DNA from: an uncultured Croceitalea sp.
GTDB lineage: Bacteria > Bacteroidota > Bacteroidia > Flavobacteriales > Flavobacteriaceae
Direction of reading: 5' to 3'
Length of the DNA: 32,892 nucleotides
NCBI GenBank assembly: GCA_937959125.1
Contig: CALGQU010000113.1
Location: forward strand, 1 to 32,892
Shown in pieces: positions 11,094 through 11,341 of this stretch. Within the stretch, counting starts at the first letter, position 1; each line of letters begins with the position of its first letter. Under the pieces are notes generated by a model that saw only the letters and a list, made by a program, of their open reading frames with translations, ran no database searches and was not told where the DNA came from. The position numbers and the translations under genes were made by a program.

Positions 11094-11123
11094 TGGAGTA
11101 TAATGGATTCGAACCAGTGACCT

Positions 11124-11141
11124 TCCCGAAAGCTTTCGGGA
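11124..11141. repeat. 18-bp perfect palindrome in place of an anticodon arm
   Basis: TCCCGAAAGCTTTCGGGA is its own reverse complement. It occupies the position of the anticodon arm in the broken tRNA. A related sequence, TTCCCGAAAGC followed by a CTTTCG arm, occurs near 16540, suggesting a dispersed repeat family. Confidence 0.75.
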
Positions 11142-11146
11142 CGCTC

Positions 11147-11260
11147 CCTGCCTACCTTAGTGGAGTGTATTGGATTCGAACCAACGACCCCCGCCCTGTC
11201 AAGGCGGTGCTCTAAACCAACTGAGCTAACACTCCAGAATTTCAATGCCCGGCAGGCAGG
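11147..11260. repeat. Inverted repeat bounding the tRNA-Val segment
   Basis: CCTGCCTACC at 11147-11156 and GGCAGGCAGG at 11251-11260 form inverted repeats with one mismatch out of ten. They sit exactly at the two edges of the segment that separates the halves of the broken tRNA, and within them lie a short leader, the whole tRNA-Val(GAC), and its trailer. Confidence 0.75.
11161..11235 (-). tRNA. tRNA-Val (anticodon GAC)
   Basis: Complete cloverleaf on the minus strand: acceptor GGAGTGT/ACACTCC with discriminator A, D arm GCTC-AGTTGGTTTA-GAGC, anticodon arm CCGCC-TTGACAG-GGCGG, variable GGGTC, T arm GTTGG-TTCGAAT-CCAAT with one G-T pair. The loop reads T-T-GAC-A-G, so the anticodon is GAC (valine). 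The CCA end is not encoded. This is the intact copy lying between the two halves of the broken tRNA. Confidence 0.93.
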
Positions 11261-11302
11261 TACACCAACTGAGCTAATACTCCCGAATTTCATTAAATGC
11301 CC
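11237..11302. repeat. Duplicated tRNA leader sequence
   Basis: GAATTTCA followed by ATGCCC appears at 11237-11250 and again, with TTAA added, at 11285-11301. On the minus strand these are the leaders just before tRNA-Val and just before the broken tRNA. With the shared TTAGCTCAGTTGGT they indicate that leader and tRNA were duplicated together. Confidence 0.7.
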
Positions 11303-11341
11303 AATGCTTTTTTACAATGGGGCTGCAATATCGTAAAAATG

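Follow-up and report, generated by a model that had tools for sequence, protein, structure and literature searches.

Where tRNA genes serve as attachment sites for integrative elements, recombination takes place near the 3′ end of the gene, part of the gene is restored, and the element carries an integrase; a REPIN is a doublet of REP sequences, an inverted pair around a small spacer, that is moved by a RAYT transposase. A different relationship with tRNA genes is that of SegB from T-even phages, a free-standing homing endonuclease of the GIY-YIG family, whose gene adjoins tRNA genes and which cuts within them; the available text describes that tandem tRNA-segB units arise, with microhomology between the 5′ end of the tRNA and the 3′ end of segB (PMC13096335). 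In CPR bacteria, rRNA genes carry insertions that lie mostly at the top or the base of stem-loops; many of those without an ORF are short, and those encoding GIY-YIG proteins fit neither intron class, according to the accessible part of that study (PMC11270868). A tRNA-Sec gene nested within the protein-coding gene selB is also reported in the excerpted text of PMC8124441. A search of the open-licence PMC literature gave no description of tRNA genes nested in tRNA genes, or of the palindrome reported here in tRNA genes, as far as the available portions of the articles extend (PMC3733652, PMC1564403, PMC13096335, PMC9897764 and PMC11270868 included).

We analysed a window of 32,892 nucleotides, by which we mean the whole stretch of contig CALGQU010000113.1 of an uncultured Croceitalea sp. 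(a 3.5-Mb assembly of 234 contigs, here G000, in which this contig is C113), together with seven congeners (G001, G003, G004, G006 and G007 among them). On the minus strand, from 11283 to 11094, the two halves of a single tRNA-Val gene enclose an insert of 114 bp, and the order is outer 5′ part, left arm, leader, tRNA-Val(GAC), the tetranucleotide CTAA, right arm and outer 3′ part (Table 1). The insert thus consists of 10-bp inverted arms, a leader and an intact tRNA-Val(GAC). The sequence-only reading of this stretch had located these elements correctly, including the 114-bp spacing, the inverted repeats and the intact tRNA with its leader; our analysis adds to its description a second palindrome, TCCCGAAAGCTTTCGGGA, within the outer 3′ part. 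ARAGORN and Rfam each called only the inner tRNA at the nest, and ARAGORN gave no tRNA-Val reading of the rejoined outer gene of the window. Since the anticodon arm of the outer gene is replaced by TCCCGAAAGCTTTCGGGA, this gene should no longer yield a tRNA-Val. The nest is flanked by queD (PTPS) on one side and by a DCC1-like gene on the other. No nuclease, transposase or integrase gene was found inside the 114-bp cassette, and no group I intron core in the insert; across the window, Rfam at gathering thresholds returned only tRNA and 5S. Of the marks of a tRNA-targeting integrative element (integrase, direct att repeats), the insert showed none: it is filled by arms, leader and tRNA, and its ends are inverted.

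Table 1. Features of the nested tRNA-Val locus (window coordinates)
Feature	Position	Strand	Remarks
Promoter-like conserved sequence with TTTTTACGATATTGC inside	11322..11339	-	Upstream of the outer tRNA; putative promoter role
Outer leader	11284..11302	-	Resembles the inner leader; last 9 nt within a 32-nt direct repeat (91%)
Outer tRNA-Val, 5′ part	11261..11283	-	Acceptor GGAGTAT, D-stem GCTC, D-loop up to GGTGTA^
Left arm of the insert, CCTGCCTGCC	11251..11260	-	Can pair with the right arm
Leader of the inner tRNA	11236..11250	-	Between the left arm and the inner tRNA
Inner intact tRNA-Val(GAC), 75 nt	11161..11235	-	ARAGORN; Rfam, 67.6 bits
Right arm of the insert, GGTAGGCAGG	11147..11156	-	Can pair with the left arm
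Outer tRNA-Val, 3′ part	11094..11146	-	D-stem GAGC, T arm, acceptor ATACTCC, discriminator A
Palindrome TCCCGAAAGCTTTCGGGA, 18 bp	11124..11141	-	Occupies the place of the outer anticodon arm

In five of the seven other congeners, the outer tRNA was found uninterrupted, identical over 75 nt and at the same place beside queD. From this it follows that the outer halves belong to one gene, that the insert is the newcomer, and that the nest is more than a chance arrangement. The existence of relatives with joined outer halves had been proposed as the key test of the sequence-only reading, and the result supports the insertion of a leader-tRNA unit that it had suggested; the target, however, was not the pseudo-tRNA it had assumed, but an intact tRNA-Val(GAC) that decayed afterwards. 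A 114-bp cassette carrying a diverged tRNA-Val(GAC) interrupted the D-loop of the ancestral gene at GGTTTA^GAGC; its tRNA differs from the native outer one at 9 of 75 positions. The outer halves decayed after the split (the 5′ part differs from the uninterrupted gene of the congeners at 1 of 23 nt), and no Val(GAC) gene other than the inner one was seen among 29 of the 30 Rfam tRNA hits of G000, of which 28 were typed by ARAGORN and one, on C162, was read by eye as Leu(CAA), the hit on C90 being left out.

Other states of the same locus are present in the genus, with a single ARAGORN tRNA at each of the seven other loci. G001 contains the same nest as the window, with an outer 5′ half that is unchanged over all 23 nt and an outer 3′ part that has lost one base of the T loop and carries AATT in the anticodon stem; the arm sequences of the two nests differ. 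In G007, the outer 5′ half is missing and the outer 3′ part is kept, a loss that, judging from the sequence, fits a deletion between direct repeats such as the 32-nt pair of the window. G004, where the outer tRNA is uninterrupted, has additional repeated tRNA 3′ remnants downstream. The 15-mer TTTTTACGATATTGC is exact in seven of the eight congeneric loci, including upstream of the uninterrupted tRNA, and occurs as a variant in L004; because its core, GATATTGC, is missing from the inner leader, the inner tRNA probably uses the old promoter of the outer gene.

Three trees were built, from queD with its upstream sequence, from queD alone and from a 1506-codon gene. In all of them G001 falls beside G006 and G003, whose outer tRNA is uninterrupted, and the window falls beside G007; the nested state requires at least two changes on each of the three. 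A single vertical origin of the nest within the genus, without losses, is not supported by these trees, yet G001 and G007 have in common the AATT insertion in the outer anticodon stem. Both two insertions and one insertion plus transfer by recombination (co-conversion) fit the trees. Beside queD in another genus (L057, in G389), a left arm and a D-loop remnant lie upstream of an outer-type tRNA, as if an earlier nested replacement had taken place at the same locus. In addition, tandemly repeated tRNA-Val 3′ remnants whose T loop is replaced by CCCCGAGGCGTCGGGG-like palindromes were observed at L007 and L040.

It had also been proposed that the outer halves pair at both the acceptor and the D stems, and that the inner tRNA could fold within an outer cloverleaf with a lengthened D arm. 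The potential pairing amounts to 7/7 positions in the outer acceptor and 10/10 in the arms (G-U counted). In the predicted minimum-energy fold of the window, the outer acceptor stem encloses the arm helix, which in turn encloses the inner cloverleaf (z −2.79; 1 of 200 shuffles equally stable). The outer D-stem, GCTC/GAGC, stays unpaired in this fold despite its complementarity. In the predicted fold of G001 the outer D-stem is paired (z −3.26). For a nest from Kerfeldbacteria (L171), in which both the outer and the inner tRNA are readable, the predicted fold has the same three elements as that of the window, cloverleaf, arm helix and outer acceptor stem, though it lacks a regular outer T arm (z −4.02).

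The same plan was found again in nests of other bacteria, distantly related ones included, and most of these nests have the same anticodon in the inner and the outer tRNA. In other genera, Val-in-Val nests were found in the flanks of similar tRNAs (L052 and L048), and two further loci (L047 and L046) are read from their sequences as decayed nests. In 397 family genomes, a pattern consisting of a tRNA 3′ end and then GGCAGG was matched 15 times, in 12 of the genomes; the control for it, the reversed pattern, is a weak one that contains no tRNA motif, and by our own reading 10 of the matches are at tRNAs and five (L081, L083, L085, L086 and L087) are not. Nested tRNA-Arg(CCT) genes are among the former 10 (L080, L088, L089 and L091), and L080, located in a 3.8-Mb contig, is a triple nest of 13 pieces that cover 290 nt without gaps in the order outer, middle, inner, middle, outer. 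Over 30 nt, the 5′ part of its inner tRNA is the same as that of the middle one, unlike the diverged pairs found elsewhere.

Of 274 distinct tRNA contexts screened with a nest detector, 34 had candidate halves on either side, and 20 of these passed the cut-off of 6/7 pairs in the outer acceptor while 14 failed; the loci had been gathered for their arms or their likeness to tRNA, and 20/274 is therefore not a frequency. A pairing of 6/7 alone is weak, as 39 of 380 mismatched control pairs also reached it; it was 7/7 in 19 of the 20 nests. These include Bacteroidota and Patescibacteria, and the nest of G001 was missed by the detector owing to the loss of one base in its T loop. The outer halves were rejoined at many possible junctions, and the result was considered readable when the standard reading was the commonest and was repeated at least three times. 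Seven of the nine readable outer tRNAs have the anticodon of the inner one (L052, L080, L091, L145, L171, L199 and L206), L089 shares only the amino acid (Arg(TCT) around Arg(CCT)), and L218 reads as Ala around Thr. In L218 we suspect that the anticodon arm is replaced by a palindrome, and this Ala-around-Thr reading stands against the nest model. No usable reading was obtained for 11 of the 20 rejoined outers, that of the window among them. When the single best-paired junction was used, six readings were clear, five with the same anticodon (L052, L145, L171, L199 and L206) and one, L089, with the same amino acid.

A D-loop pattern, in which the arm sequence follows a tRNA D-arm, was sought in 84,980 genomes of named species; it is uninformative on site preference and gave 109 matches in 103 stretches, where about 2–10 would be expected by chance according to our own arithmetic rather than a shuffled control. 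By record title, the stretches belong to Bacteroidota (43), Patescibacteria (37), Omnitrophota (12) and others (11), and in 91 of the 109 matches an intact tRNA lies downstream on the same strand, within the up to 1,600 nt examined. Three main classes were distinguished. The window-like class A, with the arm followed by a tRNA within 60 nt, accounts for 19 matches, although at L163 a 42-nt hairpin was probably mistaken for a tRNA. Class B (32 of the 109) has a GIY-YIG frame, detected with an HMM built from 13 frames of the genus, between the D-loop arm and the next tRNA, and class C (25 matches) has a 20-bp palindrome and a tRNA 48–121 nt further. The acceptor of the intact tRNA is identical (7/7) to that of the broken half in 28 of the 32 class-B matches and in none of the 19 of class A, class C being mixed (12/25). 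The left arm starts with CCTGCCCGC in 18 of the 19 class-A matches and is CCTGCCTGCC in 73 of the 90 others, and the left arm of the window, CCTGCCTGCC, is of the type of the latter and of the solo palindromes. Some D-loops hold solo 20-bp palindromes or short hairpins of similar arm sequence with no inner tRNA.

Small GIY-YIG genes adjoin several broken tRNAs, and at four class-B loci (L151, L158 from Thermoflavifilum thermophilum DSM 14807, L174 and L210) the open GIY-YIG frame runs about 20 nt into the following tRNA before it stops. No such gene was found beside the nest of the window, and the nine GIY-YIG matches of G000 are all off contig C113. A broken tRNA at L162 is a chimera: its 5′ half is that of one tRNA, its 3′ half is that of tRNA-Ile(TAT), and the palindrome connects them, which suggests recombination at palindromes. 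A scan of viral sequences yielded one stretch only, in an IMG/VR contig predicted to be viral (L244), where a D-loop palindrome (501–523) precedes a GIY-YIG-like frame and a damaged copy of a tRNA, both recognised by eye; with ARAGORN, the first 3 kb of this stretch gave no tRNA.

Palindromes with up to three mismatches occur 27 times in five of the eight genomes of the genus, and none was found in the control. Among the 16 of these 27 places that were examined, 10 touch tRNA remnants and six do not, and for the exact palindromes the proportion touching tRNA remnants is 8/9. In 41 family genomes, that of the window included, three of the nine exact palindromes are at tRNA remnants and six are away from them, so the palindrome is not confined to tRNAs. 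The D-loop as sole target was rejected: palindromes abut the start of an Asn D-stem, an Arg anticodon arm and a Thr T arm, and by our own reading nested tRNAs lie in anticodon loops at L155, L161 and L168. In the last of these, an outer tRNA-Val examined by eye contains two inner tRNA-Val(TAC) genes, its D-loop and its anticodon loop holding one each. One trait of a REPIN is present, in that two inverted REP-like arms flank a short spacer; its high copy number is not, with 0–8 palindromes (up to three mismatches) per congener. The RAYT family PF01797 gave one match in G000 (26.3 bits) and is present in three of the eight congeners overall; it was not found in G001, which has the nest, or in G007, which has the remnant (drafts of 97 and 92% completeness), and on this ground a RAYT transposase is not favoured as the mover.

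When 397 family genomes were searched, tRNAs matching the inner one at 100% over its 75 nt were found in five other genera. Neither the arms of the window nor the end of queD was present in the flanks of these five identical tRNAs (110 nt before and 130 nt after), and no donor of the inner tRNA with arms at its ends came to light. One of these identical tRNA-Val genes, at L035 (G130), has flanks that resemble remnants of another tRNA. Elsewhere in G000, the only tRNA-Leu(CAA) seen (L073, about 1267–1368 of the minus strand of C162, by eye) has a 20-bp palindrome in its D-loop and copies of a GIY-YIG gene on both sides (two). Just upstream of the tRNA-Ala(GGC) of C118 (L129) lies a dead tRNA-Ala copy whose anticodon arm is replaced by TCCCGAAAGCGTTCGGGA, which is nearly the palindrome of the outer tRNA of the window. 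Partial copies of Thr, Gly, Lys and Met tRNAs adjoin intact genes at L122 (C125), L123 (C153) and L131 (C33).

We regard it as likely that this locus represents a gene replacement by nested insertion, in which the cassette would be a small REP-like element with a tRNA in its loop. A degenerate tandem array, in which three tRNA-Val copies once stood side by side and the 3′ half of the first and the 5′ half of the last have disappeared, would agree with the likeness of the outer and inner leaders, with the 3′ remnants repeated at this locus in G004, and with the truncated copies that G000 has beside intact tRNAs of the same type (Thr, Gly, Lys, Ala and Met). Recombination in such an array had been the other option of the sequence-only reading; we do not favour it and consider it very improbable, given that each of the seven other congeneric loci has a single ARAGORN tRNA, that the outer tRNA is joined with no insert in five of them, and that the correct bracket order of the triple nest in L080 is unlike the decay of an array. 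That the nest arose in the assembly has a negligible probability: the assembly of the window is fragmented, but the same nest is found on a 250,648-bp contig of G001, and the nest of L080 within a far longer one.

The cassette could also have formed in two unrelated steps and with no dedicated element, if a REP-like palindrome entered the D-loop and a tRNA was later captured in the palindrome loop by recombination or template switching. The solo palindromes and hairpins in D-loops, the different arms of the window and G001, and the solo-palindrome type of the left arm of the window all speak for this possibility, which we nevertheless judge unlikely; the left arms of class A start differently from those of the other matches, and random capture would need selection to produce outers that share the anticodon of the inner tRNA in seven of nine readable cases, with class-A acceptors that differ. 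Another reading is that the insert behaves as an intron, the inner tRNA being processed out while the outer halves, held together by the arm helix, form a split tRNA. It would be consistent with the pairing of the outer acceptor and of the arms in the predicted folds, and with the expected tRNA type of the rejoined outer in L171, L145, L199 and L206. However, the outer anticodon arm of the window is gone, G001 has lost a T-loop base and gained AATT, the 5′ half is absent from G007, Rfam detected no intron in the window, and we know of no bacterial splicing of such an insert; this reading is accordingly highly doubtful.

Under the preferred explanation, nested insertion of a cassette, the arms would form a hairpin carrying the tRNA in its loop, and the element would be placed in the D-loop of a tRNA gene, mostly one with the same anticodon. 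The cassette would then be transcribed from the promoter of the outer gene, and the inner tRNA would be released by the normal 5′ and 3′ processing of tRNAs. Insertion into a gene with the same anticodon would be tolerated because the cassette supplies the function it destroys, leaving the outer gene free to decay. Movement would probably proceed via the cutting of the tRNA gene and recombinational repair; a GIY-YIG nuclease might act in trans, a proposal that is the weakest step of the model. Recombination would tend to eliminate pairs that are identical, a possible reason for the sequence differences within most nested pairs, L080 being an exception. Counting against the model, tRNAs that are split may be partly dispensable by wobble, so that rescue may not be needed. 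The cassette's lack of a nuclease, transposase or integrase gene, the unreadable outers, the palindromes away from tRNAs, the identical 5′ parts in L080 and the missing arm-bounded donor weigh against it as well.

A broader view, that nested tRNA cassettes are a distinct class of selfish elements spanning phyla, is one we put forward tentatively, as somewhat short of an even chance. Such elements would be bounded by palindromes and insert in the loops of tRNA genes, where the diverged tRNA that they carry, with the same anticodon, takes over both the job and the promoter; self-insertion would give nests within nests, and GIY-YIG relatives would supply the cutting. If this is true, nested cassettes would drive the turnover of tRNA alleles in bacteria. 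The locus offers a concrete route for the in-place replacement of a tRNA gene by a foreign one, probably under the old promoter, and brings together, in a single picture that can be tested, the tRNA fragments, palindromes and small GIY-YIG genes found near bacterial tRNAs. It is also a warning for annotators, as such tRNA fragments can be insertion scars. The Croceitalea genomes present empty, nested and decayed states of one locus, making the process directly testable.

Compared with the known systems, the nests resemble SegB in that class B has a GIY-YIG gene beside a tRNA, with the frame ending inside the next tRNA in some loci; they differ from it in that SegB belongs to phage genomes, the available text on it describes neither palindromic arms in the D-loop nor a tRNA within a tRNA (PMC13096335), and the cassette of the window has no nuclease gene. 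With the insertions in CPR rRNA genes they share stem-loop sites, GIY-YIG proteins and overlapping host groups, whereas the target there is rRNA and not tRNA, and the accessible part of that article describes no substitute copy of the gene (PMC11270868). The short palindromic repeats recall REP/REPIN sequences and the GTAG/CGTC palindromes, in so far as these are covered in the consulted portions of PMC3733652 and PMC3116915; here, however, the spacer is a tRNA gene, the copy number is low, and PF01797 was not found in G001 and G007. As with tRNA-Sec in selB, a tRNA gene lies within another gene, but the host gene in that case codes for a protein, and the excerpted text presents no tRNA within a tRNA (PMC8124441). 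Finally, like the elements that integrate at tRNA genes, the cassette inserts into a tRNA gene and the cell keeps a working copy; in contrast to them, a 114-bp insert without an integrase splits the gene in its D-loop and supplies a whole, diverged tRNA.
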